Made by a program: the position numbers and the translations under genes. Below are positions 7,447 through 63,340 of a DNA stretch of 64,000 nt, one piece after another. The stretch lies in NCBI GenBank assembly GCA_003971905.1, contig RSEE01000099.1, forward strand, positions 1 to 64,000. The letters run 5' to 3'. The number at the start of each line of letters is the position of its first letter. The stretch's first letter is position 1. This DNA is from Moniliella sp. 'wahieum'. Its lineage: Eukaryota > Basidiomycota > Moniliellomycetes > Moniliellales > Moniliellaceae. The notes beneath the pieces are model-generated. The model ran no database searches, was not told the origin of the DNA, and saw only the letters and a list, made by a program, of their open reading frames with translations.

Positions 7447-7457
7447 CGGCGAACGTG

Positions 7458-7471
7458 AACGTTGAACGTTG
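7458..7471. repeat. AACGTTG heptad array
   Basis: There are two exact heptamers, AACGTTG AACGTTG, flanked by degenerate units (AACGTG before, AACATG after). The core AACGTT is a perfect palindrome. Confidence 0.8.
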
Positions 7472-7664
7472 AACATGAATCAACGGTTCAGGGTTCTTCA
7501 GGCATCAGGTGCATCAGGCATCAGGAGCTCGGGCCCTCAGGCCTCAGGCACCTCTGTAAGCACTTTTGAGTCCAGACCAACAGGAAAAGGACGATGGCGC
7601 GATAGCCAGGTCTATCTATCGGTATACGTAGCGTGGGAAGCTACAGGACCTGGCAGGCAAGACC

Positions 7665-7685
7665 ATCGACCATCGATCATCGATC
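7665..7685. repeat. ATCGATC heptad array
   Basis: The array reads ATCGACC ATCGATC ATCGATC in one 7-nt phase. The core ATCGAT is palindromic. Confidence 0.8.
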
Positions 7686-8258
7686 AATTTGCCCGGAGAC
7701 TGCCGCCGAGCGAGAGAATTTTTGTCCGATCCCGCCGTCTGCCCCGCCGTACGGAGCAAACGAAGGGGACGTCTGCCATCGTTCGCAGCTCGACTGTTTC
7801 ATTAATTTCACGCTCTCCGGTGCTCTCCCCTGGCTTCTTCAAACTGCCAAGCAAGCCCTGAACCGGAAAGGTACGGAGGGTAGACTTTTATGCGCTGCCC
7901 GAACTCTGTAAAAGAAGGCACTTATGCAGCACGCCATCCCAGCTCGAGGCGGAATGGCTAATGGCAGGGGGAAGTGTACCCCCCAGCTGCGCCGGAAGCG
8001 AGGCCAGTGGAGAGTGCTGCGTCTGCGGGGGCTGGGAGGCAGGCTGGGTGCGGGACACGGATGGCGCTAGCATTTGCGATTGTTTTTTAGGGGGCATGGT
8101 TGCATGGTTGCGTGGTTGCCGTTTACGCGATCATGCATTGCATCACCGGCGACCAGCCGTCCTTTCCGCAATCAATTTATCAGCCAGCGCCCAGCCCCGG
8201 CACGGTCACCGGTCACCGGCACCTCGTACATACAGGTGTGTGAAGAGGTGACACAGTG

Positions 8259-8279
8259 ACTAGTGACCGGTGACCGGTG
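8259..8279. repeat. mixed ACTAGTG / ACCGGTG heptad array
   Basis: The array reads ACTAGTG ACCGGTG ACCGGTG. Two different palindromic cores follow each other without losing the 7-nt phase. Confidence 0.85.
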
Positions 8280-8344
8280 AGGCAACGCGTGGCGTCTGTC
8301 TATCAAGTCCAAATGCGTGCCCACTAGCCAAGAAGGCACAAGGT

Positions 8345-8375
8345 ACTAGTCACTAGTCACTAGTCACTAGTCACT
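8345..8375. repeat. ACTAGTC heptad array, 4.4 copies
   Basis: There are four exact ACTAGTC units plus a partial one. This is among the longest pure arrays of this repeat class in the window. Confidence 0.9.
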
Positions 8376-9169
8376 GGTTCACTTGATAAACGATATCGCC
8401 GGCCACTGGCGCCTAGCCACAGCACTTCGGGGCAACATCCCGTCTCAATGCATCTCGCCGATGCTCGCTGCAGCACGGCGCCTGTGTTGCGCTAATCTGG
8501 ATGGGCGCGGGGAGCACTAGGCGTGTTTAGGTAGTGAGCGTTTTGGACGGATGCACACCCGGGGCAAACGGACAGTATGCGTCGCCTCTGCATGCTGGGA
8601 CGGGCGTGTGCCTGGCTTTGGGCTTTAGGGCCTTGGGGCTTTTGGACTTTGGGAAGGGCGATTGGCGCTTAGCCTAAGCGCTTAGCGCTTGCAGCTGGGA
8701 TACTGCTGCAGGCTGCCTCCTTGCCGGGACTGGGCAGCCAGGGTGCAGCGGCTGATAATGGGAGGCGCTGGGCCGCTGGGTCTGTGCACATACACGCGGG
8801 CCGCCCGACACGCGTGCCTGCTGCCTGCTGCACTTGGTGCTCGTGCTCGCGCTGCTTGTGCTGCCCCCGTGCGGCGCATGGCGCCACTGGCCACTGGCCC
8901 AGAGCCATCTCCCGCATAGTATTCTCCTGCATGCAGCAGGACCTCCTCGCGGCCGTCGCCAGCAGCAGCCCCGCTCGCATCTGCGTCGCCTCCTCCTGCC
9001 ACCACCACCACCCACCACCCCCCCTGCGCGACGCTTCCTCCGGCCTCCGCTCCCGCAGCACACCCGCCCCACATGCGTCCTGCGTACCCCCCCTGCATGG
9101 TGGCCATCCCGCCTACGCCCCCGTGAATCCGCCATGGCGCCTCCCCCGTTGCCATCGGCTTCTGCCGGC

Positions 9170-12364: not shown

Positions 12365-12603
12365 GTCTTTTTGCATCATGGCGCAGATGGGGCATTTCAA
12401 CGTGGGATTGAGTGTCCGTTCGCTAAAATGCGTGGGTTCTCGTTCATGGCGCCGGTCAGCACCGTGGCGGCGGAAAACAAATAGGCACGAGGGTCTGAGT
12501 GCTGCTGAGGTCGAGATGTGAGAGTCTGAACGCAGGTGGAACCGATCCCGTGTAGGCACCCACTCGGCTGGGCATGGGTGCCTGAGGCCAGTGCAGGTGG
12601 CAT

Positions 12604-12631
12604 ATGCATGACCGGTGACCGGTGACCGGTG
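12604..12631. repeat. mixed ATGCATG / ACCGGTG heptad array
   Basis: The array reads ATGCATG ACCGGTG ACCGGTG ACCGGTG, four heptamers in one phase with a change of palindromic core after the first. It lies about 130 bp upstream of the NDUFA12 start. Confidence 0.88.
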
Positions 12632-15980: not shown

Positions 15981-16552
<572 letters not shown>

Positions 16553-16638: not shown

Positions 16639-17607
16639 CGCGCGTTTGTTTCGATTGGGCAGCAGGCTGACAGGGCAAAAACGGGGCGCTCGGGGCAGAA
16701 ATGATGCTGATGCGGCTGGGCGCGGAGGGGGAAGACAACGAAGAGGGCACGGGGGCAGTCGCATCGTGGTCTTCCTCATCGGGCTCATCGGAGCTCCTGA
16801 CTAGCCTGACGAGACTGCTTTCCTTCCCGGGCTCGCTGTCGCATTCCGGCATCCAATTATCCAATCCCATCCCATCCCACCTGGCGGCTCTGCACTCTGG
16901 TTTGTTGGCCGACCTGGGGGCCGCCTTCTGACTCGCGCCGTGCCTGCTGCCGCTGCATCTCGTCCCAATGCGGTCGGGGGTTTTCATCCGCCTGCCTCAT
17001 GCGCGCACTGGGATAGATATCGAGACTCGCTCAGGATGTAATGATCGATGATCGCTCGCTCATCGACCCAGTCTCTCAGCCGTCTCAGCACAGTGGTTGC
17101 ATCAACGCGACAGCCCCACCCTAGGAGACCGCGTTGAACGCTTAATGCGTTTAATCAAGCCCGCAGCATGGCCACCGCGCAACGGCCAGTGTTGTGGAAG
17201 ATAGGGGAAGCAGGGATTCGGCCTAGCGAGGCATAGTCGGCCTAGTGCAGCTGTCTGATAGCCACAGTCTGGCCAGATTCATAACAGGCAACACAGCGGC
17301 CATGGAGGAGGGTAAGCCAGAAGGAGGAGGATGCCGATGGGGAAGGGCCCCCCAAATGCAGCGTGGGCAACCCCAAGTGTGCCCAGAGCTCCACCTTGGG
17401 TGCCGGCTAGCGTGGCACAAGTCTTCCCATGATGCAGTGACCTTGGGCGGTCGATGGGATGGCTGGCTGCCAGGCGGCCACGTCGTGAGAAAGAGCTTTT
17501 CGAAGGAAAGCGAGATTGCCTCCAGGAGGATATGCGTTCACACGTTCACACGTTCACATGACACAGCCGACCGCATGTGTCTCAAGCGGTGGGGGTTCGG
17601 CGGACTC

Positions 17608-17648
17608 AGTACTCAGTACTCACAACTCACATGTCACATGTCACATGC
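17608..17648. repeat. mixed AGTACTC / ACATGTC heptad array
   Basis: The array reads AGTACTC AGTACTC ACAACTC ACATGTC ACATGTC ACATGCC: six heptamers in a single phase. The middle unit looks like a transition between the two palindromic cores. Confidence 0.9.
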
Positions 17649-18146
17649 CGCACGTTCAACGTTCACAAGCAGCCATCGGGTTCACAACTTGCCACCTCGG
17701 TGGTGCCGTGGCTACTGAGTCTCAGTTTTGCTGCTGGCCGCACTGAGTCACTAGTCACTGACGGACGGACAGGCAACCCTACCGCACCAGGACCGGCGGA
17801 AGGGTGCAACGCACTGATAAGCGGGTAGGGTTGGGGGCGTGCAAGTGGGACGGGCAGCTTACGTCACGCGTCACGGGGCAGGCGGCAGAAACAGGCCCGA
17901 AGGATGCGCCGACGGCGGGGCGGCGTGCGGCTTATTTGTTTGGAGCCGCCTTGGGGCGCAGGTGGCACCAACGCCAGACGACAATTTAATCGACAGCCAC
18001 AACCCCCGTCAGCAGCTTCAGCCCAGTGCCAGAAAATTTACACACCAACGCCGCCATGTGCAGCCCCGCGCCCGCGGCCAGCGCCAGCGTCAGCCCTGAG
18101 CCACAGCCGCCAGCGCAGCGGTAGGTGTCCGCACCTGCCCCACCCC

Positions 18147-23195: not shown

Positions 23196-23289
23196 GGCAT
23201 CGTGGTGTAGTTGGTTATCACGTATCCTTAACAGTGGACTAGTGCCTGAGTTAACGGATAAGGTCCTCGGTTCGATCCCGGGCGAAGTC
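23196..23289 (+). tRNA. tRNA-Val (AAC), intron-containing
   Basis: The acceptor stem pairs GGCATCG with CGAAGTC, with one mismatch and one G-U. The D-arm is TGGTGTAGTTGGTTATCAC, typical of fungal tRNA-Val. Anticodon AAC is at 23230-23232, and the anticodon stem TATCC pairs with GGATA. A 21-nt intron (23234-23254) follows base 37. The T-arm CTCGG-TTCGATC-CCGGG is perfect apart from one wobble, and a T6 terminator follows. Confidence 0.9.
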
Positions 23290-24836
23290 ACTCCTTTTTT
23301 GGTACCCGACATCTAATTTTTTGGCACCGTACGCCCCCCGGCAAGTGCAGGCTGATTGGGCCTATGTCTTGGGCAGCAAGGCGCTGTTTGTTACATGGCC
23401 AGAGCGATCCTCTGCCTGGGGCTCGACCGAGTTATTGGGCCAACCCGGTCGGGGCTAGAGACGAGGTGTTGGCACCCACGTTTCCTTGCGCAGCGTCGAC
23501 TCGCATGGTGAGCTTGGTAGATGCGCCGGATCGGGCAAGACGATCAACGTATCTGTAGGCCGGCGGTGGCCCTAATACAAAGGGGGCTGAGCGGTTGGAC
23601 GCTGAATGTTGACAGGAACGGCGAAACAGGAGACGCCAGGCTCAGGACAGTACCGCAGGCAAAAGAGATCAACAAGACAATGAGTACAGTTGAGGCTGGA
23701 AGCTCTCATACATATGTGGAACGCTTGAAGCTACGAGAGGGCCAGAGGTTCAACGGTGTTGCCAGGACGAAAAAACGTTGACAAACTGGCATTGTCAAGA
23801 CTCCACGTCGACTGCATGGGCGAGGGCAAGAACATCAAAGAGGGGACCGGCAGGATCTATAACTCAGACGGCACAAACTGTACCAGGACGATGAGATGGA
23901 AAAGTAGCCATGATTTACACGAACGTACAGGGAGGCATCAGAATTTGGCCATCTCGCCTCCACGCCTCACGACCCCCCGCAGCTCAGACGAGCACGCGGG
24001 TAATGGGACGGGGGTGCCGGTCATCGGAAGGCGACATCGACCCCGAAGGGAAGGGCCTTTGCTCCTCACTGCTTAAGGGCGAGACGTACAAGAACCAAAG
24101 GATTCATCCTCTGCCCTGTAAGTTGTGGCTCAAAAATAGAGCTGGCCAGACTCGGAAGATAACTGTATGCACAGATTCTGCTGAGAATGGTCTTGGTATG
24201 CAGACAGGGAGCCACACACACGCCTTTTAACCCTGCCGGCACTGAAAAAAAAATGCCACGGCCTCCAGTCAAAAAAAAAAATGCGCACTAGGGTTGCGGG
24301 CACGCCTCAGCCTCCACAGTGCCCTCCTGCGGCCTCCACTGTGCCTCCACTGTGCCTGTAGTTCCGCTTGCCAAGGTGTCCAACTTAGATTCCGCCATCT
24401 TGAACATTTTCGAAAGGTCGACAGAACTCTAGTCTGATTCACCTGGCAGCCTCGATATTCAATCGATAGTAGCCTCGAAGGGCAATTTAAGCTTCAAATA
24501 CCTCTGGTAGCCGGTAACCGGTAACCAGTAACAATGCACTCAACTTGTGTTCAACGCTGGCCATGAGCATTGGCCCATCTCTCTCGACAGAACTGTTCGT
24601 CCGATGCTTACAGTGGGCTGTCCTCGTTGGTATTCCAGACCCGGGCATATATGGAGGAGGGGTGGGCCCGCAAGGATCAAACGTCTAGGAACATTGGGGC
24701 GCAGTTTCTAGTTACTAGTTATACGCCTAGTACACTACCACAACTACAAGGGTTCAAGGGGAAAACACAAGTGCAAAGCATGCAAATAGGCATTAGTATG
24801 ACAAAGGCACTGGGTCAGCGCGATCAATGGTGCAGC
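23290..24836. other. 1.5-kb gene-poor spacer
   Basis: This contains A-runs near 24245 and 24275, a short GCCTCCACTGTGCC direct repeat near 24320-24355, ACCGGTA heptads near 24512 and an ACTAGTTA-type stretch near 24715. A 73-87 residue open frame around 23521-23781 has no recognisable family. No conserved gene is seen. Confidence 0.5.
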
Positions 24837-25912
24837 TTAAAGCGCCGTGTTGACCTTGAGCGGCGCCTTCTGCTCGACCGCGGTTCCAAACACATTAATG
24901 GGCCAGGAAGGCGTGTAGGTGAGGGGAATGTTGTGCGGTTCTCCCCATACTCCTTGATCAGATCCGTCACGGCAGCGAACTCCTCGGGAGAGAGGGTGAT
25001 CTGCTCAAAGTTGCTCTGGATGCGCGAAGGCGTGACACTCTTGACCAGCACACTGTATCCGCGCTGAATGCCCCACGCAATGAGGACAGAGGCAGGCGTG
25101 TTTGACGCGCTTGGCAATCGCCTCAATGCCAGCATTTTGCGTGAGCGGGGGCTTGCCAGCAACGTTGTTGCCCAGCGGGCTGTACGCAGTGATGACAATC
25201 TTCTTGGACTTGTGATGGGCCACCAGCTCATTTTGCTGCAGGAGCGGGTGGGCCTCAATCTGGTTCACAGCTGGGCGCTCGCCCGAGGCCTTCTCGACCA
25301 GGTCAACCAGGTCAGTCGTGAAGTTCGACACACCCACCGACTTGGTCTTGCCAGTCTTCTTGAGCGCCACAACGGCCTTCCAGGTGTCCACCAGCTTGAT
25401 CGATTCGTCAATGAGCGCTTCGTCCTTGTTGGAGGGGTTGCGAGGGACAAGTTCCTGGGGGTGGTGTACTTGAACGAAACAGGCCACTGGGAACGCAAAG
25501 CGGGAAATTAGCAAGCATGCCAACAAGGGGAGCCGAGGCAAAAGGACAGCGGGGGCACAAAGGCACAGGACGTACGTGGATCAGGTAAAGGTCGAGGTAG
25601 GTCAAGCCCAGCTCCTTCAGCGTCTCGTCCAGCGCAGGCTCGACCTGCTCCGGGGCATGGCGGTTGTTCCAGAGCTTCGACGTGATGAAGAGGTCCTCAC
25701 GCTTGACGACACCCTCATCGAACAGCTCCTTAAGGGCTGCACCAATCTCCTCCTGGTTCTGGTAAATCTTGGCCAGGTCGAGGTGGCGGTAGCCAGCCTT
25801 GACCGCGAGCTTGATGCCCGCCCACCTGGCCGGGCTGGGCGAGCCAGGTGCCGTAGCCCAAGGCGGGGATGGCGTTGCCATCGTTAAGAGGGATCGACTT
25901 TCCGTACGACAT
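24837..25912 (-). CDS. aldo/keto reductase (GCY1/YPR1 type)
   Basis: This is a cytosolic NADPH-dependent aldo/keto reductase, closest in style to yeast Gcy1/Ypr1 glycerol and aldehyde reductases. The start [21 protein letters not shown] is family-typical. The catalytic tetrad is visible: Asp and Tyr in [13 protein letters not shown], Lys in FITSKLWNN and His in DLYLIH-WPVSF. The last is formed across an 89-nt intron at 25487-25575 (GTACGT...CAG). Substrate and cofactor motifs [21 protein letters not shown] and the phosphate-binding [14 protein letters not shown] follow, and the C-terminus [10 protein letters not shown] ends at 24837. The total is about 328 residues, normal for the family. One-base frame breaks occur near 25835, 25455, 25105 and 24930. 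Confidence 0.88.
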
Positions 25913-26000
25913 GGTGACTGAGGTGGGGCAGGTGCAGCGGCGGAGAACGAGGGGGAGAACGGTTGAGGTGGGCAGCGAAGAACAGGTGAGGGGCGGCGGC

Positions 26001-26006
26001 TTTATA
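26001..26006 (-). promoter_or_regulatory. TATA box of the aldo/keto reductase
   Basis: The minus strand reads TATAAA about 90 bp upstream of the start codon. Confidence 0.5.
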
Positions 26007-26459
26007 GGAAGGTGCGGCGATGACGCGGGGCGCTGGACATGGCCTGTGCGCCCAGGCATCTTCTCAGCACGACCGGCATCGAAGCCAGGCCCCACTGCGC
26101 ACGAGGGCAGTGTGCCTGGGGCGCCCAGGGTGCGGCGATGACGCCGGGCGGCGGCAGGCGGCGGGATTGCACCGGTCAGTGGTCACGCGATCATCGCAGC
26201 AATTTGGACGCTGAGGTGGTGGGTGGTGGGTGATGCATGATGCAGGCGCATTCCATCACGCCATCCTCCCCCCGCCACGCCTGCTGGCCCTGGCCGCCGC
26301 AAGAGGGGCGGAGCGGATTGCGCTGCGTGCCGCCGCCATCGCCGCCGAGCGCCTCGGCCGCACCCCAGCAGATACGCCAGCGCCTCCGGGACAATTCGCC
26401 ACCCGAACAAGCGCCGCACCGTCCGACCGCTTCGGCTTGGCCTGTTCCACTCTGTATTG

Positions 26460-26479
26460 AACGTTGAACGTTGAACGTT
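26460..26479. repeat. AACGTTG heptad array
   Basis: The array reads AACGTTG AACGTTG AACGTT, followed by looser copies to about 26497. Confidence 0.88.
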
Positions 26480-26699
26480 CAGTTGAACGTTTGAACGCAC
26501 TCACTCGAGCATGAAACTGATCGTCAACCTCACTGACCAGCCTGGCCGCCGGCGCCGCCGCTGCCTCCGCCAAGCATCCATATCTAATCTCCTCTCTCCC
26601 TCCAGTCCGGCCCAATCGCCGCCGCTTCGCCTCTGGGGACGGCAACAGGCCAGCATCCACCCCGTATCAACGTTGTTTCCTCCCTGGTCCGCTTGGCCC

Positions 26700-26769
26700 A
26701 TCGCCCATCGCCCATCGCCTATCGCCCATCTCCAGCTTCCAGCCAATCATTAATCAGCGCTCAGCCTGA
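26700..26769. repeat. long in-phase heptad tract (ATCGCCC, ATTAATC, AGCGCTC)
   Basis: Four ATCGCCC-type units (26700-26727) are followed, after exactly three degenerate heptamers, by ATTAATC (26749) and AGCGCTC (26756) in the same phase. The tract suggests a decayed ten-unit array. Confidence 0.65.
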
Positions 26770-26994
26770 GCCGCAATTCTCAGCCAGCTCAGCCACCTCG
26801 TCCGGGCTGTCACACATCCTTGGCCCTCATGTAGCCGCGCTCTCGTCGGCATCAGACTGATGTCCTCATACGTCCAGTACCATGCATCAGCGCTGAGGCT
26901 CAGCCACCATCCATCAGGTCAATGGGTGACGCGTGACGTGTGCATTGCACGTGGCCTGTAGTACTTAGTCACTAGTCAAGAGCTAGTCAAGCTC

Positions 26995-27008
26995 AAGCTT
27001 CAAGCTTC
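26995..27008. repeat. AAGCTTC heptad array
   Basis: The array is AAGCTTC AAGCTTC followed by AAGTCAC. The palindromic core is AAGCTT. Confidence 0.85.
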
Positions 27009-27298
27009 AAGTCACTATAGTCCCTAGAAACCACGAATAGTGATCCAGTGAGCTGGTAAGGGACCGCGGGAAGGATGGCACTCTTCCACACAGCATGCCA
27101 GTCCCCCAGCAAAACGTCGATAAGATCGATGGGCTCACGTCGTCGACGCAGAATGCGCATGACACAATCCATTTCACAAGCGACAAGGGGATTCCAATCG
27201 TGCCAGCATGCGCCTCCGAGGCGCCGTCGCAGGAGTCCGTCCAAGGCCGTTGCTGCCGTCGGTCGGTCTCGATGTTCACCCGTTCTATCCAACCCTTG

Positions 27299-27316
27299 AA
27301 GCTTGAAGCTTGAAGC
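27299..27316. repeat. AAGCTTG heptad array
   Basis: The array is AAGCTTG AAGCTTG AAGC. It lies about 300 bp from the AAGCTTC array. Confidence 0.85.
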
Positions 27317-28169
27317 CTGGTCGACAAACTCAATCAACGCTGCTGAGATGGGTATGCTGATGCAATTCCATGCGCAAAAGCTGACATTATTACCGGTTAC
27401 CGGTTACCAGCCATCCTGTGCTCCCAGGGTCGATCGGATCCGCTTCCTGCCCCAGCCTCTCTTCTCAGCTTTTCCGACAAAAAATCAGGTTCGCGCGGAC
27501 TGAGTACTCAGACTGAGTACTGACGAGATCGCCGATTGTATTGGGCATCAAAGGCTCACAGGCCAATGACTTCATGACTCCCAAAGCTTGAAGATCGACG
27601 AGCATCATCGACATGAATGATCACTAGATCAGTAGCATCACTGCGCCTCAGCGCTTAGGCGGTGCTTTCAGCATGAAACTAGTGCTAGCAGCTGCCCTTC
27701 CCACTATGATATACGCGCCCAGCCATGACCAAGCTAAGCTGGTGCCGAGGAGTACCGAGCCTCTGTGCTCACTACTTGCTGCGCACATGGAGCGCATGCA
27801 GTGCACCGAGCTCCTTGCCCTGCCATTGCGGCAACGATGGCTGCTCTTCAAGCGTGCCATGCTCCGCGTAGCCAACCCAAGAAAGCAAAACGAACGGCAC
27901 ATTTCGGGCTCCCCTGCGCGCGGGGATACATTACAGGTTCCAAATGCACAGTGGCAGCGTTCCAGTCCAAGGCATCCGAGGTGCCAAGGCGCACTGACCA
28001 AATTCGTGGTCCCGTAACAGGCCCCTCTCACGACCAGGTGGAAGGGTAGAATGAAAAGAGCGAGGTGAGGTGAGGTAGGAAAGGAGAGGAGAGGAGAGGA
28101 GGGGGAGGATGATCGATGACAGAGCCCCAGATGGCAGGTGCAGGTCACCAATCTCAAATCTCAATTCGA

Positions 28170-37501: not shown

Positions 37502-37804
37502 GGGGCCAGTGGTCGTTAGGGAGGGCGGGTGAGGGTGATGGAAGCGAGCGGGTAGGCCGGGTAGGCGCAGACTTGGCGCAACTGGTTGGTTGCTTGCGAG
37601 ATGGCCGCGTGAGCATCACGTGTCGATGATAGATGGGTGGGTCGAATTGGCAGCATCGCGGGATTACGTACGGCTGCTGTCTCATCGGGGGTTGAAATTT
37701 GAAAGGTTCGTGTTTAACGTTTTACGTTCGACGTGTGATCTTTTGAACGTCGTAGCTCGTAACGGTAACCGCGTAACCGGTAACCTGTCGCAACGCGTAG
37801 CTTG

Positions 37805-37825
37805 AAGCTTGAAGCTTGACGCACC
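37805..37825. repeat. AAGCTTG heptad array
   Basis: The array reads AAGCTTG AAGCTTG ACGCACC in phase. The core then appears to drift towards ACGCGT/AGCGCT. Confidence 0.8.
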
Positions 37826-37927
37826 AGCGCGTCAGCGCTGCAAACGAAATAAGCAAGACCGGACCTTCGATCATCGATATCACGACCACTAGTCAGTCTA
37901 GCCAGTATCAGTAGTCAGTAGCTAGTC

Positions 37928-37941
37928 AGTACTCAGTACAC
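37928..37941. repeat. AGTACTC heptad pair
   Basis: The pair is AGTACTC AGTACAC, inside a longer stretch rich in CTAGTC. Confidence 0.7.
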
Positions 37942-38087
37942 TGAGTAGTCCTCCAGTTACTAGTCGCTAGTCACTACCCCACTGTCCACTTGGAGCTTGA
38001 AGCTCCCGATGAACTGACCAGTGTTCGATCAAGATGATCTGCAATCCAGCTAATTCAGGTTGGTTGAACGTTTGCGTTTGAACGGAA

Positions 38088-38114
38088 AACGTTGAACGTT
38101 GCATGTCACATGTC
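38088..38114. repeat. mixed AACGTTG / ACATGTC heptad array
   Basis: The array reads AACGTTG AACGTTG, then CATGTC (one base short), then ACATGTC. It is a mixed array with one missing base. Confidence 0.75.
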
Positions 38115-38199
38115 AGCCCCAGATCACCGGTCAGTGACACGATCAGCGTTCCCTTAATCACCGAAGCTCCGCGAGAGGCATTTGACCCGTTGGAGCTTG

Positions 38200-38246
38200 A
38201 AGCTTGAAGCTTGACGTTTGGCTGTTTGACGCGTGACGCGTGACGC
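38200..38246. repeat. AAGCTTG and ACGCGTG heptad arrays
   Basis: The array AAGCTTG AAGCTTG ACGTTTG is followed, eight bases later, by ACGCGTG ACGCGTG ACGC. It sits about 230 bp upstream of the ARF6 start codon. Confidence 0.88.
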
Positions 38247-38480
38247 TTGAAGAGCGGGTGAGATCAGGCCGCCCTGGTCTCACTCTGCTGCTCGTCTCAT
38301 CTCCACCTCCATCTAACCTCGTCTCCAGCACTCGCCGCTCGACGTTGGACGCCCGTCGTGGGGCTCTTGCGTGTTGTCTACTGCTACCAGCTGCCGCCTC
38401 CGCCATCGCCTTCGAGCCTCCTCCTTGGCCACTCTCACGCTCTCTCTCTGCCCCCTGTGCTCCTCCGCGTCTGAAGCACC

Positions 38481-39032
38481 ATGGGCCAATCACTCAGCAA
38501 AGCGTTGGGCAAGCTCTTTGGCAACAAAGAAATGCGAATTCTCATGCTCGGACTAGATGCAGCCGGCAAGACGACCATCCTGTACAAGCTCAAGCTCAAC
38601 AAGTCTGTCACCACCATCCCCACAGTCGGTTTCAACGTTGAGACGGTCACATATCGCAACGTCAAGTTCAACGTCTGGGATGTCGGCGGCCAGGACAAGA
38701 TTCGCCCCCTGTGGCGCCACTACTACACTGGCACCCAGGGTCTTGTCTTTGTCGTTGACTCTTCTGACACAGCTCGTATCGAGGAGGCGCGGACTGCTTT
38801 GCATCGCATTCTCTCCGACAGGGAGATGCGCGACTGTCTTCTCCTTGTCTTTGCGAACAAGCAGGACGTCAAAGGTGCCCTGACTCCCGCTCAGGTTACC
38901 GAAAGACTGGGGCTTAACAAGTTGACCAACCGCTCTTGGTTCGTCCACCCATCATGTGCTACAACGGGTGAAGGGCTCTTTGAAGGTCTCGCTTGGCTCT
39001 CCGCCAACGTCAAGAGCGTATCCAAGCCCTGA
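38481..39032 (+). CDS. ARF6: small GTPase ARF6 (ArfB)
   Basis: This is an ADP-ribosylation-factor GTPase of the Arf6 class, which works at the plasma membrane in endocytosis, actin control and polarity. The 183-residue ORF is uninterrupted. N-terminal [20 protein letters not shown] includes the myristoylation Gly2 and the Arf6-type [19 protein letters not shown]-loop. Switch motifs [14 protein letters not shown] and [17 protein letters not shown] are exact, NKQD and SCATTGEG provide guanine recognition, and REMRDCLLL is Arf6-like rather than Arf1-like. No introns or frame breaks are present, which makes it a useful internal standard. Confidence 0.96.
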
Positions 39033-40078
39033 AATGCTCCGACCACATTTATTTCGTTACACCAAACTTCTCACCACTTTTTTTTCTTCTTGTGTGCGAC
39101 GCAGTAGCCTTGGGTTGCGTCTTGAGCCTTCCACCATCATCAATTAGCTCCCTTTCACTTTCTTCTGGATGTACCAGCTCCCTGGTGCAATCCCGTATGC
39201 AGTCCTGCCTACTCCACCCCCTGGATCTCGCGCTTTGTATTCCACCGTGAGCTTTCTTCCAGATCAGGCCCTGTCATGGACTGCTGTCTGCTATGCCTCC
39301 CCCCCAGGCCCTGTTTCTACCCTCGCAAACAATGTTGTGAGTGGGTACCCTACATTTCCCTTCCTTGCCCCACCATGCTTTGCTTTACAGCGAGGAGCGT
39401 TACCTGCGACTGAGCCTCCCTCTAGTGCGCCGACAGTTCTCATTTTCGAGCTGGCGGGGGTTGATGCATGATGGATAAGCGGACCAGCTCGCTGTACTTG
39501 CCGTGCATCATGTTATACCTGCAATGCTTGTCATGTTCCCGGGCCTGGCTTTTGAACCATCGAGCGCTCAGGCTGAGCGCTGAGCCTCAGCACCTTGTCG
39601 GGAGGATCCCATGTCGGCGATATAGGGGAGAGAATACTGACAGTAGCCTTTCGGGCATTTCGTATCAATTCTTTGAGCAGGGGGGGTAGAAAGTGTACAT
39701 CCCCAACTACATTACAGCACCTTGCATTTGTTCCCCAGCGACCGGATAACCGCCCATATGCGATGCACAACTAATACAATGCGGGGAATAGAACTTTGGG
39801 AAGTAGTCAAGCTCTTGGCGCCTCTTCCATCTTCCCAAGCAGCATTGTACGGGGCCACCTAACAAAAAAGACCACATGTCGGGAGATGATCCACCCTACA
39901 GATCTTCCGAGCTCATGCACCCAGTGGTCATCATAGAACGGAATGAGCGTGGCGTAAGAATAAAAGCTTCGACGAAAAGTCGTTTTGGTTGGGTCGTATG
40001 CGTCAAGAGGGCCACCTCAAATGGACGGGCAAAGTACTAAGGTAAGCGAGGTACAATTCCCATTGTGGGGAAAATGTG
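39033..40078. other. spacer between ARF6 and PEX11
   Basis: These are convergent 3' flanks. The spacer contains ATGCATG near 39465 and an AGCGCTC...AGCGCTG stretch at 39563-39582. No gene is supported. Confidence 0.5.
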
Positions 40079-49240: not shown

Positions 49241-52200
49241 ATGTCGGGTCTCATGTACGCCTCCTCTTCCAACGCGGGTGCCGGCCCCGGTGCGCAGTAC
49301 GAGTACGACGCAGCCGCCGAGCGCAGCTTTGTTGCCTTCTTCAACTCCCTTCCTTCCTCCGACGCGGGCCTCGTGCGTCTCTTTGACCGCGGCACGTTCT
49401 ACTCGGCCCATGGTGACGATGCAGCGCGTCCCGACAGCGTGTACCGCACCCGCAGTGTTATCAAGCAGCTCACCGGCGCCAACAGTGCCCTGCTCCCTAG
49501 CGTCACTCTCAACGCCGCTGCAGCCAAGAGTTTCCTACGCGACGCGCTCAGTGCCAAGCAAATGCGCGTCGAAATCTACTCCAACGGCGGAGGCGGAAAG
49601 CGCACTGCGAGTTGGTCTATTACCAAACAAGTATGTGCTGCCTTTTTTCTTGTTGTATCTGCCCCACTCACACTTCATTGGTTCAAAGGCGTCTCCAGGG
49701 AACTTGCAAGAGGTCGAGGACCTGCTCTTGCCAACAGCGACATGCTCGTCTCTCCCCTCGTTGTCGCATTCAAGATCAAGACGATCAAGGGTTCCATCCA
49801 TGTCGGTGCCGCATTTGCTGACGCGACCAATCGCCAGCTGGGTGTGGCCGAGTACGTTGACAATGAGCTGTTCAGTAACACGAGGTGCGTCCCCGTCTCG
49901 CGCATGACCTGATCCCTCCCCCTTGCTGACCCCTGCGCCCCTCGCCGCAGTCTCTGCTAATCCAAGTCGGGGCCAAAGAATGCATCTTGCCAGAGGACAA
50001 GAAGGACAGTGATGCTGAACTCCAGAAGCTGCGAGCCGTCGTGGAACGCTCCGACTTGGTCGTCACCCCAGTGAAACGGGGAAGCTTTGACGACAAGGAA
50101 ATCGATCTGGATCTTGGTCGCCTGCTCCGCGCCTCGGGATCGAACAGCGGGGACGTCAGTATGGCCGATGCCGCCGAGACTGGAACTGGGACAGCGTATC
50201 TGCGCTTCCCGAGAGTGAACTCCGTCTGGCTATGGGCTCTCGCAGCTCTCATCTCTTACCTGCACCTTACCGGTGACGATGCCAATTTTGGCGCATTTAC
50301 GCTGGCCACGCACGACCTGGGCCAGTACCTGCGCTTGGATGCATCTGCCATTCGCGCGTTGGGTCTGTTCCCTGATCCCTCCGGGGTGGTGGATCCAACC
50401 GCAATGCCAGTCTCTTTGGATTGCTCAACAAGTGCCGGACGGCCCAAGGAACGCGTCTGCTGGCCCAGTGGATCAAACAGCCACTGCGCAACCTCCACGC
50501 CATTAAAGAGCGCCAAGATCTTGTTGAGCTGTTTCTGGACGATGTCAGTCTGCGTTCTTCGCTGCAAGACGAGTTTCTCAAGGTCATGCCGGATCTTCAG
50601 CGCCTGAGCAAACGTCTCCAGCGCGGCGTGGCCAGCCTGGAGGACGTAGTTCGGATCTACCAAGCTGCCCTTCGCCTTCCTGGTATGATTGAGAAGCTGG
50701 CCGATGCTCGTGCCACCTCCACGTTTGACCTCCCTGCGGGAGAGACGAGCGCGGTGGCCTCTACGTTGGACCGTCTGCTCCTCACGGGGCTCGAACAGGG
50801 ATCGAAAGCGTTGGAGAATTTGGTCGCGATGGTGGAGGAGGTACTGGACTTGGATGAGTTGGCCAACCATTCTTTCGTCATCAAGCCAGCCTTCGATGCG
50901 ACCCTGACGGAGATCCGCCAGCAACTGGATCAAGTGCGAGATGGGCTTGAGGCAGAACACAAAGCTGCTGCGCGGGAGTTGGGACTGGAGATGGGCAAGA
51001 AGCTGCACTTGGAGCTTCACTCGACCTATGGGCATGTATTCCGTGTTACGCGAACTGAGGCCAAGGCGTTGCGCACTGCAACCAAGAACAAGTACCACGA
51101 AGTATCCACCCAGAAGAACGGCCCTCTTCCGTACCTCGTCGTTGAAGGAGCTCAGTGACGACTTTGCCGAGCAGACGGCCGCCTACGAACAGCACAAGCA
51201 GGGGAGTAGTCACCGAGATTATTGCGACGGCGGCGACGTATGCGCTACGCTGGAGCAATCAACGTAGTGATCGCAACCCTCGACGTGCTGTTGGCCTTTG
51301 CATATGTGTCAGGCTCAGCACCCGATCCGTATGTCAAGCCCCAGCTCCTGGTCGACGAGGACGTGCCCATGGACGAGACGCATGAAGGCGAAGGTGCCCC
51401 GCCGCCAAAATCCACCGCGCCTCTACGCTTGACCAAGGCTCGGCATGCATGCGTGGAAGCTTCGGATGACATTACTTATCGCCAATGACGTGGACTTGGT
51501 CCAGGGAGAGTGAATTTGCCATCATTACGGGTCCCAACATGGGTGGCAAGAGTACCTTTATCCGTATGGTGGGTGTCATTGCCGTTTTGGCCCAGATTGG
51601 CTGCTTTGTCCCAGCGTCGGCATCGGAAGATGGACGTGCGCCGCAGGTGCCAGTGTTCGATGCAGTCCTATGTCGTGTGGGGGCGGGCGATAACCAGACG
51701 AAGGGTGTGTCAACCTTTATGGCGGAAATGCTTGAAACGGCCACCATTCTCCGCACCGCCACGCGCGATAGCCTGATCATCATTGACGAGCTTGGCCGAG
51801 GAACGTCGACGTACGATGGATTCGGTTTGGCCTGGGCCATCAGTCACCACATTGCCACCAACATTCGGGCAAAGTGTCTGTTTGCGACCCACTTCCATGA
51901 GCTCACCACATTAGCCAACCAACTTCCTTATGTGCGCAACTTGCATGTTGTCGCGCACGTGGAAGGGGGTCGGACCCAGGATGGAAAGCCTCTGACGAGA
52001 GACTCGATCACTTTGCTGTACCAAGTCGCTCCAGGCGTAGGCGATCAGAGCTTTGGTATTCATGTTGCCGAATTGGCCCATTTCCCCCGTCCATCATCCG
52101 CCTGGCCAAGCGCAAGGTGGAGGAACTCGAAGGTCCTGAGGGGCAAGGGGATGGAGTGCCCGCGCCGGTGGCCCAAGATGAAGAGGCTGGTGCTGGGATC

Positions 52201-52389
52201 GTGGAAGAGTTTATGGCGGAGTGGGCGCGTCGGTCAGCAAGTGTCAAACGGCTCCGCCTGGAACAAGGAACGGAGGAGGATAAGGCAGAAGCGACCAAGC
52301 AAAAACAGCTGTTGCAACAAATGGTTGAGGAGTGGAAGGACAAGTTTGAGGGAAATGCTTGGGTCCGCAATGTCTTGGCGTCGTTTTGA
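49241..52389 (+). CDS. MSH2: DNA mismatch repair protein MSH2
   Basis: MSH2 is the common subunit of MutS-alpha and MutS-beta, recognising mismatches in the nucleus. The start [13 protein letters not shown] leads into the mismatch-binding domain with [17 protein letters not shown]. Introns lie at 49631-49688 (GTATGT...AAG) and 49885-49950 (GTGCGT...CAG). Core and clamp segments ([28 protein letters not shown]) precede the ATPase: Walker [40 protein letters not shown], Walker [18 protein letters not shown] and the His switch [10 protein letters not shown]. About six one-base frame breaks occur, including a GAG codon apparently reduced to AG at the second splice junction. A charged coiled C-terminus ends WVRNVLASF. 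Length is about 1000 residues. Confidence 0.95.
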
Positions 52390-52766
52390 TTGCGATCCCA
52401 TTCGTCAATCAAGCTCAAATCGTCTCTCCTCTCCTCTCCCCTCTCACTGACTTGTTCTGTCGCGCCCATGTGTTCGAATGCCCACAAGCCAACCCACTCT
52501 AAACCCTTGGCCAGCATGACACGCATGCCAACGCGTTTTCGCAGCTTTTCTGTTGAATACATTTGCCAGTTTTGGTTTTGTCAAAGAGCTTCACCTGCAA
52601 AAAGTTCTCTCGCTGCATACTAGCTGTGAGGCTCTGAAGCCAGTGGATATATGCCTGCTCCTTCGGCCTTCGTCAACTGCTAGACTTGCGTCGAAAACAG
52701 TGGTAACTGCCAATACGATCGTGCAACAGGAGGTAACAAAAGCGACAAAATAATCACTAAAAAAGT
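52390..52766. other. spacer between MSH2 and tRNA-Ile
   Basis: This is a T-rich 3' flank. No gene is seen. Confidence 0.5.
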
Positions 52767-57102: not shown

Positions 57103-58394
57103 TCGAGTCGAGGGATAGGCCCGTGGAAGTGGCGCAAATCCCGTGTCGACCTCGCCGAAGCCCCGCTTGCGTGCAGGAACGGGGCGGGGTGGGAGGTACC
57201 GGTGCGGGATTCATTGGTACCCTGGGGGGGAGAGGAGAGTGGGAGGGAGTGGGAGTGGGGCGGAGAGGGTGCAGGAGAGCAGGAGGAGCAAACGCTGCGG
57301 CTGAGAGACGATGGCACGTGCAGACAAAAAAAGAGGGATGGCAGTGTGCAAGCAGTGGGGTTGGGCCGGGCGGGGTGGCCTGGTGGCTCGTGTTGGGGAG
57401 GGGGCAGGAAGATGGAGGGGTGGTGGGGGAGCCGAGGGGTCAGTCCGCCTGCTGCTGCCTTGCATCATGGTACTGCTGGTACCCCCGCGCTAGTGGCATG
57501 CCACCCACCATGAGTTCATGCCGTTCAACATTCATGGCTGCGTATCGGACTAGGACTCACTAGTCATAGTCACTGCGCTGACGCTCACAGACAGAGTCAC
57601 TGCTGGTACTCACTAGTCAGATGGCCAGCACTCTCTCGTCGCTCCGTCTCATTGATACGGTCCACGCTGGGGCGAATGAGTCGATGATTTGGATGCTCAA
57701 TCAGTAATCAGCGACATTGGCAGACCTGGTGGGGATGGTCGATGGGCTGGATGGGCAGGATGGCCTGGGAGGGCTTGGGAGTGAAGGATCGATGATTGAG
57801 CGCTGACGTTTCAAACCCGACAGGTGTACTGGCCTAGTGCGCCTGAACAGAGGCACGGAGAGTTTGTATTTCATTTGTGCGTGCGCTGGGAGCGCTGAGC
57901 GCGCTGAGCCTCCGCGCTGAGAGGCGCCCAACGCCACGTGCAGGTGACCTTGAGACACCAGGTGTGACACGTGACTGTCACGGGACCCCATGCTGGCGCT
58001 GCTTGCGCTTGCGCGTGGATGCCGTGCGCCAGGCCGCGTCGTTGACATGTGGGCGCTGCTTCGTTTGAAATTGGATGGCGGTTTGCCGTCTGGAAATTTG
58101 ATACCGGGTAGTACGGCAGGGGCGGCATGCATGCTCTGCACCATGTACCGGCCGCCTGGACTCGCTACCCAGCCAGTCTCTCTGCCCTCGTTCTCGCGTC
58201 ATCGATCATCGATCATCGATCATCTCCGACGCGCAGAAACCCAACACACTATCCACCGCTCCACAGACACGGAACGCTGCAATGCAGCGTTGCATGGGGG
58301 CACAGCCTAGTAGCCGGTTTGAAGCAACGCTCGGTCCATACATGCCATCCATACACAGACCCCACCTCAATCGTTTCGCCCCGTCGCGCATAGT
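57103..58394. other. spacer with heptad arrays
   Basis: G-rich and purine-rich stretches (57225-57420) are followed by CACTAGTC-type repeats near 57555-57620, AGCGCTG repeats near 57888-57920 and the ATCGATC array at 58201. No gene is supported. Confidence 0.5.
58201..58224. repeat. ATCGATC heptad array, 3.4 copies
   Basis: The array is ATCGATC ATCGATC ATCGATC ATC, exact throughout. Confidence 0.9.
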
Positions 58395-58595: not shown

Positions 58596-58873
58596 CGGCG
58601 CGAGGAAACTACGCCACCAAGACGGCGGGCAAGATGCTTGGAAGAGCTGCAAGGAAACAACGTTTAACTACTGAGTCTCAGATCTCAATGGAGATGGTTC
58701 ACCGGGTTCACCGCTCGGATGTCTACCACGTTCATCCGTATCCACAAGCGCTACCTCGGGTATTATGGGGACGGATGGTGGGCACCAGAGGGTCCGGATC
58801 TCTTGACAATTCCCTGGTTCCTTAAACGGGGTTTTGGCGCTAACAAGCAACACACGCCGGATGAACGGGTCGG

Positions 58874-59005
58874 TTTAGGCGCACAGGGCTTCTTTGTCCC
58901 AGCCTCAATTAAGCTCTGTCAACGATATGGTTACGGTATATAGTTTAGGCGCAGCTTTCCTTGTCCCAGCCTTAAGCTCGGTCAATGATATGGTGACAGT
59001 ATAGA
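58874..59005 (+). repeat. tandem pair of a 62-70 bp dispersed repeat
   Basis: Two head-to-tail copies each begin GTTTAGGCGCA and contain TTGTCCCAGCCT and TCAA(C/T)GATATGGT. The copies are about 80 percent alike by eye. A third, more distant copy lies inverted at 4728-4800. Confidence 0.75.
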
Positions 59006-59711
59006 GATACCCCCGCTTTTCATTATGTGAATCATTCCACCGTGCGCGATGCTACTGGAGGAGACAGAGGATCGTGCAGTTAGCCCTGGTTGTCATGGAG
59101 TGAGTCCCGAGGTAGACCCATCTCATGCATCACCCCTGTTGGTGACGGGTACAAACCCTCGGGCGGCCAATCGGCGCCACGTACTACCGAATGTCCGGCC
59201 CGCAGATCCTGGTTGAACGGTGAACCGAGCGGGTGTAGAGGCGAGGGAGAGACCCTCTAGTTTTTAGGTGGCTGCCTGGGTGCCAAGGCCGCAGCTCAGT
59301 CCCTCCGAGGTGGGAGCAGCGTACGCATACGTCTTCAGACTAGTTGAAGGGGTCCAGGAACTCCGGGATAACGTGGGTTAGCTGGGGTGTTACCACACTC
59401 GACGCGCTGTACTAATATAGACAGAATCAGACGGAGTCCTAACGATGAAGAGCAAGCGCTAAGTACTGAGAGTAACCGCGCGGCTTGCAGTGTAACCGAC
59501 GCGAGTCGTAAATTGGTAAGGGTGGAAGAAGATGGAAGGGCGAAAGAGAAATGGAAAGGTTAGAACGGGGACAGGTGTATCAGGGTGAACAGGTGAGCAT
59601 TGCATGTGTAACACGATGGTCGATAAGGACCCATAGGCAACATCAAGCCTTGATGCCTCTGCCTAGTTTCGGACTTCCTGAGGTCACTACGTTTTTGGAA
59701 GACGTGTTCCC

Positions 59712-60340
59712 ATGCCTAACCCCCATTGGAGCCACCAAGTCTACTTTTTCTCCAAAAGCACCGCCATATGCACAGGGGAATTACGAGTATTTATCTCGTA
59801 TACTCTCAACATGGTCATCGGCGTTGCCGCGTCGCTTGCTGTCGTTGTCTGGCGCTATACCTTGACGAATCACTGGCAGGATCCCTGTTGGAATCCATTT
59901 GATCCAAGGTGTCGCTTACGGTATGCTCTGGGACTGGGACTTAGTGCGCACCCTTTCCATCACGGGCGGCCTGCTCATGTCCCTCTCCGACTCGCTTGCT
60001 GTGCAAAAGAAAAAAGGCCAACGGCTATTCGCTGGCCTGCCTTACTCGCTCAAAGTCAGTGAAAGTGACAAAAATCACTACCTTTTTGACCTCTTCGCTG
60101 GCAGTGTACTGCTTGTCTTCCTCTCTTCATTGGGTTCGCCTTTCCTGGCGAGTGGGGCTTCGTGCGTGCCATCACACCATCGTGTTCCGTCGGGGTGCTT
60201 GCGCCATGGTTGCCATCGGCTTCAAGACGCGCTGGTCAACCTCTCTTTTCTCGTCTTGCTTCACTCTCCCTTTTCAATCTGAGGCAGTCGACAGCTTTTG
60301 GTCAGTCAACAGTTACGACTTTTGCGTTATAACTGTTTCC
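59712..60340 (+). other. possible multi-helix membrane protein fragment
   Basis: Two overlapping frames contain consecutive hydrophobic stretches and an NHWQDPCWNPFDPRC segment that looks coding. An AAG-GTGTCG junction near 59910 could be an intron border. No family was recognised and the ends are undefined. Confidence 0.3.
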
Positions 60341-61436
60341 TAACTCTTCTATTCATTGAAGGTGGCCTCCTGCTATTGGCCGCATCATGGTTTCTCGTCC
60401 ATATACTCGATTGACGAGAGAAAAAGGCAGCTTAAGAATAAGACGCTCGCCTCGGATAATGGACCTGGGGTTTTTGTTCCCCTTCATCGTTGTCGATTAT
60501 CACCGCGTAGCATGATGGTTACCCCTCCTGTCTTGCCCTTTTGGCCGTTACCCAAGGGGTCCAACCGTTGGGAGGTTTGAAGCATCGAGCTGCTCACAGC
60601 TAGCGGACCGAAACTTGAGTTATGCGTTGTGGCGGTGCCCTCGAGGCTAGTATAACCCTCCTTTCTTCCTCCGTTGTCTGCTTTCCAAAGCGATTGCTTC
60701 CTAGACTGTATGGATCATTTTTGGCCAATGTTTGACTGAAGAACACATTGATGTTATGTTTCTCCGATGCAATCGTAGATGGGGTGGCGCGCATACAGCT
60801 CATGGCTTGCGGCTTGGGGATACAGGCACATTTCTGCAATTTCTTTTACTGCACATGGCAAGGTACATATACAGGAAAGAAGTCGACATATCTGACCAAG
60901 ATGGAGGTGTATACCTATGCGAAAATGAGTTTTGTGAAAAGACGCTTCAGTTCCCTTGTCCGTGCTGTCCAATGTTTCCAGGCGGTAGACCGACATGAAT
61001 ATCCCTTTAACGCAGTATGGACAGGCTCAAAATATGACCTCCAGACTTCTTTCAACCCAAGACCTGAGGCTTCGGTATTTCCCCCTCCCCTACAGGCCAT
61101 ATATCTGGGCGCCGGCACACCCCCTATATAGTGGCTCTCCCACGTTGAACGGGGTCATGAGCAGACACAAGCCGGACAGATCGATCGTCAACAAGTCCAA
61201 TCGAGATGGCCGTGTTGACCGTTGCACGTCCGACGTTGACGTGATGCTGAAAGAGGTTGCTGAGAGCGTGATGGTTCTGCGATGCCAACCATGTGACCTA
61301 TAAAACCTCTTTGGCAAATATACGCTACTTCATTGTGGTCTTGTCAGCACTGCCCATTCAACACTTGATCATTGGACAAACAAGCATAAAAGTTTGAGAT
61401 AATTCGCTGGGTTTGCGGCCTTGACCAACGATGAAC

Positions 61437-62434
61437 TTATGTCGTCATCTCAACATAGACGTTCACAGTGTAGATGAAGCAAATGAAAAACGTAAAGCCC
61501 ACACCACGGTAGAGCGAAGCAGTTCCTTCCTCAGCCACCATCGTGCGGAGACAATCGACCAAGCCTGAATACATGGCACGCTGCGAATGCTGCCCAGCCG
61601 TGGTGGGCAGAACCAGGACCGAGCGCGGGGTGACGATGGTCTCGCCATTGCTCACGGTTTCCTCGGGCTCCGACCCAGTTTCGAGCCCTTGCACCGCGAG
61701 GCGGACAAGTGCCACCTCGAGGGGAGTAGCAAGTGCCATAAAGATAGCGAAGAGCGCAACAAAGCGTACTACCCCCAAGCGGTGACCCGGTAGCTTGGGC
61801 CGAAACCTAAGAAGACAACTGCACGCGGTCCGAGCGCAAGCAGAACCATATACAGCCAGTAGGCCGCCCAAAAGCCCGGTAGGGCATAGATGCGATAAAA
61901 CTTGGATGCACCCGGCAGCAGATCCGCCCACGTCGTACGCGGAGCCTTGCGATGGACAATCGCGCGCGCCCCTAGCACACGAAAGCCACGTCCCCGAGGA
62001 CAACCAAAACAAGGAAAACAACGAGGAAGAGGCAAGCAAAGATCAAATGTAGGGGGAGGTGAGCGAAACCAACTCAAGCACCCCCATTGCGACAAAGTAG
62101 TATGCGAATGCACCGGCAAAAGTGATCCATCCCCCGGCATAGAGTGCCCGCCACCCAGCGAGACGCTTGGCACGGCGTAGCATGCCCCATATCGTGGGTT
62201 GGCTTGTATAAGTAGGAGTGGGGTGTCCTCAGCGGGCAGGGCAACGCTCTGGGGCGCGTAGCTGGCGCGCGCACGGACCACGGAGCTGATCCACGGCTGG
62301 ACCAATCCCACGCCCAACCCCGTCGAAAGTGAAGCGGCCACCAGAACGGCAAGAATGTCACTGATAGTGCTACTATCGCCGTCGGCCGTGAAAGTCGTCG
62401 TCCCCAGAAGGGAGGGGAAGTTGATGAGGTCCAT
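61437..62434 (-). CDS. mitochondrial carrier-like protein
   Basis: This is probably a divergent member of the mitochondrial carrier family in the inner membrane. The start MDLINFPSLLG at 62434 precedes a helix with SLSTGLGVGLVQPWISSVVRA, whose LVQPW stands where carriers have the PxD/E motif. Typical matrix-loop words follow: LAGWRALYAGG, and near the end LVDCLRTMVAEEGTASLYRGVG, with an odd-helix ATPLEVALVRLAVQGLE whose PLEVALVRL resembles the carrier signature. About four one-base frame breaks separate these blocks (near 62205, 62055, 61975 and 61800). Length is about 330 residues. The missing or altered signature residues make the transport activity and substrate unknown. Confidence 0.7.
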
Positions 62435-63340
62435 CCTCCAGGTGGTGGTAGGTGGCGAACAGGCCTCAGGCCGTCTCCTGCCCCCTCTCAGATCTGGGTC
62501 TCAGGGGGCATGACATGTGACATGTGACAGCATGGTTACGCTGCGCTGTTGCGCGTTACACGCGTGACGTCATTCCATCCAATCATGCCCAACGCTACAC
62601 ATCGGTGATTAGTGCCTAGTTGCTAGTCGTGGGTCGTTGCCTGTGTTGCCGGGTGGAGGCTGGACGTCGGTGGACCGAAATCTGGCCTGCTTCCTGTGAC
62701 ATGTGACAGCGGCCGGTGCCAGTTGCGCTGGTAGGTGGGAATAACAACACAAACAAGCAGAATTGGTACACAATGTCGTCGGAGAGACGGGCGCGATGTC
62801 CGAGTTGGGCGCGGTTCCCTCCTCATCGATCATCCCCAAATCGTCGGCACTGCAGTCGCCCGTGCCACCTCATCCCTGTCAGACTCACGCCGTGCTAGGG
62901 GCCCCTTGGCCACTAGACCCGTATGGGCACTATGGCGTGATTCTTATCAGTTGGGAGATCCTGTGTCCACCTCTCGACTGTGCCCCCTTCCTGAGGAGGT
63001 CATATACCTCCTCTGCGTCCATATATGTATGCAATCCATCTGCGCCCTTTCCCCCATCTCCGTATCCTGACAGGTTATGAGCCCACTCAGCGCTTCCAGG
63101 CTCGCGAGCCCCCGGCGGACATCTCTCCTCGGCCTCGCCGCCCTCCTCCCCCCGCCCCCGATGTCCGCCCGTCCGCACGGCACACTGCCGCTGTGCGCTG
63201 ACTTCTACCAGGACGCCTTGCAGGTCGGCGTCAGGCCCCTCACCCCCCCCCCGTGGCCGCTGTCCCCCCACGCGGACCCCTCCCGCCACGGCGCGTGAGC
63301 CGCCCCTTCCGTTCCGGAATCCCCTACCCCTGGCCTGGCC
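62435..63340. other. spacer and possible 5' part of the right-edge gene
   Basis: ACATGTG and AGGCCTC heptads lie near 62461-62526. From about 62800 the plus strand could hold a 5' exon (MSELGAVPSSSIIP at 62796) of the right-edge gene, but this is unproven. Confidence 0.4.
62513..62526. repeat. ACATGTG heptad array
   Basis: The array is ACATGTG ACATGTG followed by ACAG. AGGCCTC AGGCC lies 45 bp upstream at 62461. Confidence 0.8.

Follow-up and report, generated by a model that had tools for sequence, protein, structure and literature searches.

The first 64 kb of contig RSEE01000099.1 (229 kb in total; assembly GCA_003971905.1, 69.5 Mb in 223 contigs) of the basidiomycete Moniliella sp. 'wahieum', hereinafter the window, carries numerous short arrays of period 7 whose units have palindromic cores. 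Sequence comparisons within this genome indicate, and in our view show well, that these arrays and the related single events follow one rule, XYTNA -> XYTNA-Y'X'-XYTNA (X, Y and N being any base), that is, a 7-bp insertion made up of the reverse complement of XY and a second direct copy of XYTNA. We consider it probable that the arrays are scars left by an insertion process, site-specific and locked in length, in which the growing strand folds back and, after copying two of its own bases, takes up synthesis again.

Period-7 arrays and the insertion rule

In the window, there are 57 exact period-7 runs of at least 14 bp, 38 of which have a palindromic core, 37 of these being of the form A....T, whereas five dinucleotide-matched simulations yielded 0-6 such runs, with 0-1 palindromic ones. 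A 264-kb sample, composed of the window and twenty 10-kb pieces from hand-picked (not random) places of the same 69.5-Mb genome, contains 174 exact runs of at least 14 bp, 93 of them palindromic and 87 of these A....T, compared to 19 runs and a single palindromic one in one trinucleotide-matched simulation. For periods 4-6 and 8-19, no comparable excess of palindromic units was found in the sample. The original prediction, a description of the window made from its letters alone, had singled out arrays of this kind and expected palindromic cores to be more common among period-7 repeats than in matched random sequence; they are far more common (38 of 57 and 93 of 174, versus 0-1 and 1 of 19), and all 13 coordinates named there are period-7 runs with an A....T palindromic core. 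Its count of 15 of the 16 possible cores is reproduced as well: exactly 15 cores occur in the window's 61 A....T palindromic runs that reach 12 bp, the missing one being A-TATA-T. The further claim that symmetry is conserved and sequence is not holds for the tetramer, the sequence of which is free, but not for T-N-A, which is strictly conserved every 7 bases. Read in phase, the unit is TNA-tetramer-TNA-tetramer, with a constant TNA along the array and a palindromic tetramer.

The preference for T-N-A is pronounced. The T.A class accounts for 144 left-type and 164 right-type matches, and each other class for at most 18. The central N is copied directly, with 308 cases of the same base, 8 of the complementary base, 12 transitions and 3 other changes; it is also the same in 89 of 100 listed places of the genome-wide T-N-A matches. 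The density of the arrays is uneven, with no palindromic run of at least 14 bp in 5 of the 20 10-kb pieces (L008, L012, L016, L017 and L024), so that the extrapolation from 199 A....T palindromic runs of at least 12 bp in the hand-picked 264 kb to about 52,000 runs genome-wide is approximate. The remaining period-7 repeats are weakly TNA-rich (28 of 70 versus 21.3 expected). A perfect non-palindromic GACACAG array, with 14 copies and the same period, is present at L023:5257-5357.

If events recur at one TNA on the same side, the rule predicts identical units, array lengths that tend to 5+7n and a palindromic tetramer Y'X'XY; events on the other strand, which would involve the two bases on the other side of TNA, are predicted to place a different tetramer beside the same TNA. 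Run lengths peak at 12 bp (66 runs) and 19 bp (16 runs), i.e., at 5+7n. Among the 47 runs of at least 17 bp, the commonest end-phases are the two predicted ones, namely XY-TNA...TNA (9 runs) and TNA...TNA-ZW (7 runs). The numbers of runs with one to six added units are 159, 32, 6, 0, 1 and 1, and each of the 14 runs from three simulations taken together has a single added unit. A TNA flanked by two different palindromic tetramers occurs 93 times compared to 28-39 in three simulations, whereas the control motif A-N-T occurs 27 times compared to 31-38; one case of such switching around a shared TNA is GATC TGA GATC TGA CCGG TGA CCGG TGA near L015:1459.

When the arrangement is described as a stem of copied bases and a loop, a stem of two with a three-base loop starting with TNA is found at 219 loci with both strands counted, or at 158 loci in the 264 kb when each place is counted once, versus 0 simulated in either count. 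The same once-per-place count for the inner pairs G-N-C and C-N-G gives 3 and 7 loci. Other stems with the three-base TNA loop are few (15 versus 5 simulated for stem 1; 4 versus 0 for stem 3), and loops of four and five bases with TNA first are found at 22 and 13 loci, respectively, versus 0. Across the genome, where a single array may match several times, the T-N-A pattern CTTNAAGCTTNA has 5,861 + 5,984 matches (11,845) on the two strands and only 11 + 7 when read backwards; the corresponding numbers are 176 + 175 (351) for the G-N-C version, with 118 + 98 backwards, and 88 + 92 (180) for the A-N-T version. The pattern TNATCGATNATC, itself an instance of the rule, has 3,868 + 3,782 matches. 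Thus, T-N-A is needed genome-wide. All stem dinucleotides except TA are in use, at 4.9 arrays per 1000 noncoding half-sites for stems of A/T only, 18.4 for those with one G/C and 10.1 for those with two, so that A/T-only stems are 3.8 times rarer per site than one-G/C stems; 15 of the 16 tetramers occur, with between 3 and 26 arrays per 1000 noncoding half-sites.

The arrays are not equally represented in coding exons, in accord with their original description as intergenic. Predicted coding DNA makes up 24.5% of the 264-kb sample according to a rough self-trained codon model (used in place of a dicodon model, which was overfitted) and includes 3 of the 199 A....T palindromic runs of at least 12 bp, where about a quarter would be expected, and 0 of the 87 such runs of at least 14 bp, compared to 7 of 87 other period-7 runs and 65 of 254 period-6 repeats; TNA-rich arrays tend to disrupt reading frames. 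Because a 7-bp insertion is a frameshift, purifying selection is sufficient to explain their absence from coding DNA.

Haplotype differences and the direction of change

The assembly contains both haplotypes, which are 95.6-98.8% identical over aligned columns. Four pairs were aligned, including pairs on the window contig (C99) and C37 (window 24300-27700 versus C37:391471-394828, and 37600-39700 versus C37:404671-406819) and on C1 and C25; the fourth pair (C25 and C1), a paralogue of part of the window, is probably a haplotype pair itself. The numbers of indels of 1 to 8 bp in the four pairs are 151, 51, 24, 9, 8, 7, 18 and 4, so that 7 bp exceeds its neighbors, and the 18 seven-base differences approach the 24 three-base indels in number. 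In 12 of the 18, a 12-mer that fits the rule spans the gap in the longer allele, although in a few of these, plain duplication of a unit gives an identical result.

Single-event differences with a gap of exactly 7 number 13, of which 8 were judged clean by inspection, that is, the short allele has, between matching flanks, one XYTNA followed by two bases other than the filler; an extra one-base indel lies alongside one of the 8. The remaining five comprise two cases with a diverged site, one that belongs to a longer event, one with a messy alignment and one for which plain duplication suffices. Since the filler dinucleotide is absent from the short allele in the 8 clean cases, plain tandem duplication cannot produce them. 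In 94 allele comparisons, for which the arrays of each allele were taken in turn so that shared arrays are counted twice, 35 were identical, 21 were equal in length with substitutions, 31 were longer in the array-bearing allele and 7 were longer in the other allele. From the identities of the pairs, we estimate that the haplotypes differ by one 7-bp change of the rule type for every 50 substitutions or so. That arrays are common to both haplotypes and missing from genes argues against a sequencing or assembly artefact.

The principal arrays and single events in the window are as follows:

7456..7474, + strand: AACGTTG array, TGA ACGT TGA ACGT TGA AC
7671..7686, + strand: ATCGATC array
8255..8280, + strand: mixed array sharing TGA, TGA CTAG TGA CCGG TGA CCGG TGA
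8345..8375, + strand: ACTAGTC array, 31 bp, the longest in the window
12609..12631, + strand: ACCGGTG array
17604..17665, + strand: cluster of TCA arrays with changing tetramers, GTAC, GTAC, CAAC, CATG three times, then ACGT
24708..24721, + strand: ACTAGTT array, 7 bp shorter on the other haplotype
26457..26479, + strand: AACGTTG array, different on the other haplotype
26745..26756, + strand: single event AATCA-TT-AATCA; AATCA alone, with matching flanks, on the other haplotype (C37)
27295..27316, + strand: AAGCTTG array with two inserted units, one on the other haplotype
27638..27642, + strand: empty site TCACT; TCACT-AG-TCACT on the other haplotype
37799..37819, + strand: AAGCTTG array, without array (12-bp gap) on the other haplotype
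38088..38115, + strand: adjoining AACGTTG and ACATGTC arrays, one more ACATGTC unit on the other haplotype
38194..38214, + strand: AAGCTTG array
38227..38246, + strand: ACGCGTG array
58199..58224, + strand: ATCGATC array, 26 bp (5 + 3x7)
58676..58687, + strand: single event TCTCA-GA-TCTCA in a copy of a dispersed repeat, without the event in two sister copies
62511..62529, + strand: ACATGTG array

The direction of change is suggested by a dispersed repeat family, four copies of which were aligned: two carry 7 extra bases of the rule type and two do not. The window copy has TCTCA-GA-TCTCA (58676-58687) and the copy in L014 has ACTGA-GT-ACTGA at the corresponding place, which reads as two separate insertions, although it may also reflect a single shared, older insertion that diverged later. 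We infer the same polarity for the arrays outside this family.

A 1.4-kb element resembling a long terminal repeat (LTR) retrotransposon is located at 6056-7447 of the window, adjoining the array at 7456, with terminal repeats of about 240 bp (TGTTGG...CAACA) and a flanking CGGCG duplication. Among 40 scored of 496 candidates, there were about 50 further long matches of 94-99% identity, several of them in tandem with a common terminal repeat. This element was considered as a source of the arrays and rejected, its boundaries and duplication appearing unrelated to them; six aligned copies showed no 7-bp insertion.

Other differences between the haplotypes include five plain duplications of 5-10 bp. 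At position 39433 of the window, the other haplotype carries a plain 10-bp duplication bounded by TCA. A larger difference, at 26966-26993 compared to L038, resembles the fold-back rule with a nine-base copy, CTAGTCAAG-AG-CTAGTCAAG.

Proposed fold-back synthesis and alternative explanations

The filler reverse-complements the pair of bases immediately upstream, and this requires a template formed by folding back. In the mechanism that we propose, the 3' end ...XYTNA would lift off during DNA synthesis or gap filling and fold back with TNA as a three-base loop; the folded end would copy XY, adding Y'X', and the small hairpin XY-TNA-Y'X' would stay extruded while synthesis restarts at X on the normal template. 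In four-point notation, such an intra-strand template switch would span two bases between points 2 and 3 and have point 4 ahead of point 1, the switch points being placed after A, at Y, at X and at X. Existing arrays would also change in length afterwards. Of the two options offered in the original prediction, hairpin-templated slippage or synthesis is thus supported, and a series of landing sites for a dyad-binding protein is not.

That the copies have a near-exact length of two bases, and that T-N-A is needed, points to an enzyme, either a polymerase or a nickase cutting near TNA, rather than to hairpin stability. Given that G-N-C is not used, base pairing fails to explain T-N-A, and an enzyme that recognizes TNA or stalls there, as a property of a polymerase or through a nick, appears likely from these patterns. 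Both the fold-back intermediates and such an enzyme are what we infer from the products. A bolder proposal, which we offer only tentatively, is that a dedicated or captured T-N-A-specific activity (a nickase, a transposase relic or a polymerase) might write 7-base self-templated hairpin insertions across the nuclear genome and so constitute a new, semi-programmed class of mutation that makes its own repeats out of the sequence around it. A mitochondrial polymerase of the DNA_pol_A family is expected in this genome; a search for this family gave no match and missed even that enzyme, so that it says nothing on absence.

Several observations weigh against fold-back copying in the simple form given above. 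Hairpin stability alone fails as an explanation, the more strongly pairing inner pairs G-N-C and C-N-G not being favored, and stems with two G/C are used less than those with one. A stem of only two bases primes ordinary polymerases poorly, and no enzyme for the rule was found. With two-base stems, three-base loops without TNA first are also above chance (122 versus 38 simulated), an excess that misread phases of TNA arrays explain only in part; the rest suggests a weaker, more general fold-back process. Longer loops without TNA first likewise number 35 versus 12 for four bases and 34 versus 3 for five bases. About half of the four- and five-base loops lack TNA, and where it is present its place is not fixed (offsets 0 and 1 in 8 and 6 four-base loops; offsets 0, 1 and 2 in 7, 2 and 5 five-base loops). 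Six of the 18 seven-base haplotype indels miss the strict rule, growth in unit number may partly be ordinary slippage, and the direction, insertion as opposed to deletion, rests on four copies of one repeat family.

The alternative nearest to a fold-back during replication is that the DNA is nicked or broken site-specifically at TNA and then filled in by snap-back, a reading that overlaps with the fold-back account and does not exclude it. This version, which we regard as possible although rather doubtful, would account for T-N-A without base pairing, neither G-N-C nor A-N-T being used, but no enzyme was found for it either, and a fixed nick site predicts a fixed place of TNA, which varies in the longer loops. 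Transposon excision would leave a product of the right shape: a cut-and-paste element with a 5-bp target duplication would, on excision, leave both target copies separated by two P nucleotides from an opened hairpin. Scars with P nucleotides are indeed described for Ac/Ds, including in fungi (PMC5873905), but in the part of that account drawn on here they are varied, with 28 kinds among 128 Candida clones, short deletions or P nucleotides on either side, and a center at the complement of the border base (PMC5873905). In the arrays, by contrast, one outcome dominates, without heterogeneous deletion joints, and the central N is copied rather than complemented (308 to 8); XYTNA would also seem to lack the symmetry about its own center expected of a transposase target, up to six added units would require repeated hits, and the ends of six aligned repeat families showed no clear XYTNA duplication. 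An origin by excision is therefore unlikely, and hAT-type footprints in particular were set aside on account of the uniform outcome and the copied central base. Searches for the families PF13359 (DDE_Tnp_4) and PF05699 (Dimer_Tnp_hAT) found nothing and are uninformative, no control genome having matched for Dimer_Tnp_hAT.

Ordinary microsatellite slippage would start from random 7-bp duplications, among which palindromic ones would expand faster because their hairpin loops escape mismatch repair. Differences in unit number between the haplotypes (two units versus one in two cases), the 87 other period-7 runs and the five plain duplications among the haplotype indels are what this explanation would lead one to expect. 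However, a single event already makes a palindrome, with the inserted heptamer or filler absent from the short allele in the 8 clean cases, and slippage leaves unexplained the T-N-A, the lack of a comparable palindrome excess for periods 5, 9 and 11, and the two different palindromic tetramers on one TNA. As the sole cause, slippage is contradicted by these data and we rate it as quite improbable; as a secondary step of growth it is possible. Selection for arrays of binding sites for a dimeric protein appears more improbable still, to the point that we give it very little credence. It would fit with the palindromic cores and the absence from predicted coding DNA, but the latter is expected for any 7-bp frameshift, the use of 15 of the 16 tetramers leaves no conserved specific site, and one haplotype often has an array that the other lacks or carries in a shorter form.

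Relation to known systems and other genomes

Local template switching is described by a four-point model for great apes and for inverted repeats in yeast (PMC7954356, PMC8604942). The fold-back insertion proposed here resembles it in the reverse-complement copying of very near sequence followed by a return to the original template, and both an intra-strand fold-back and the placement of point 4 before point 1 are within what the cited parts of these papers describe (PMC7954356, PMC8604942). It differs in that almost all copied stretches have two bases, most loops have three and T-N-A is required, and in that the event recurs at one site and builds arrays; the same parts of these papers do not describe a motif- or length-locked class (PMC7954356, PMC8604942). 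Variable length and position without a motif, which is our reading of template switching and not a stated definition, is not what is found here. The mechanism would seem to belong with template switching, but the lock on two bases and T-N-A appears to go beyond the accounts cited.

The footprints of Ac/Ds (hAT) elements share with the arrays the small palindromic additions beside a short duplication but, as far as the cited portion goes, are heterogeneous and complement-centered, in contrast to the one outcome with a copied central base (PMC5873905). The arrays are like micro- and minisatellites of period 7 in having short tandem units that vary in number, and unlike them in that the unit is set by the relation of filler to flank and not by one conserved sequence. 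DNA polymerases elongate palindromic tandem repeats in vitro via hairpins, a self-templated growth like that of the arrays; to our knowledge, that reaction follows no T-N-A rule and involves longer units. No paper on the rule was found in searches of the open-licence PubMed Central literature, which does not cover most papers in subscription journals.

In Pseudomonas and some other bacteria, period-7 AAGCTTN arrays, the only core that was sought, are found at at least 120 loci (L042-L161), often beside related heptamers, and at 20 viral loci. In 1.08 Mb of these prokaryotic and viral loci, the general TNA rule is not seen when the AAGCTT core is taken out (10 loci versus 9 simulated).

The rule reduces an odd repeat family to one exact mutation equation, with which the origin of tandem repeats can be tested for each event separately. 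It would also represent a clean trace, in vivo, of DNA synthesis by fold-back, a source of frameshifts and palindromes on the scale of the genome and, if it is true that an enzyme underlies T-N-A, a new kind of DNA-writing activity.

Among other genes, the window carries a chitin synthase gene and an MSH2-like mismatch-repair gene, part of which is located at 51485-52450. These genes are of fungal character; mushroom-type fungi (Agaricomycetes) such as Clathrus and Leucocoprinus are the closest among the named matches, and the chitin synthase has its best matches in metagenome proteins. At 23196-23291, ARAGORN predicts a tRNA with a four-base anticodon, which is possibly a false hit or an intron-bearing gene.

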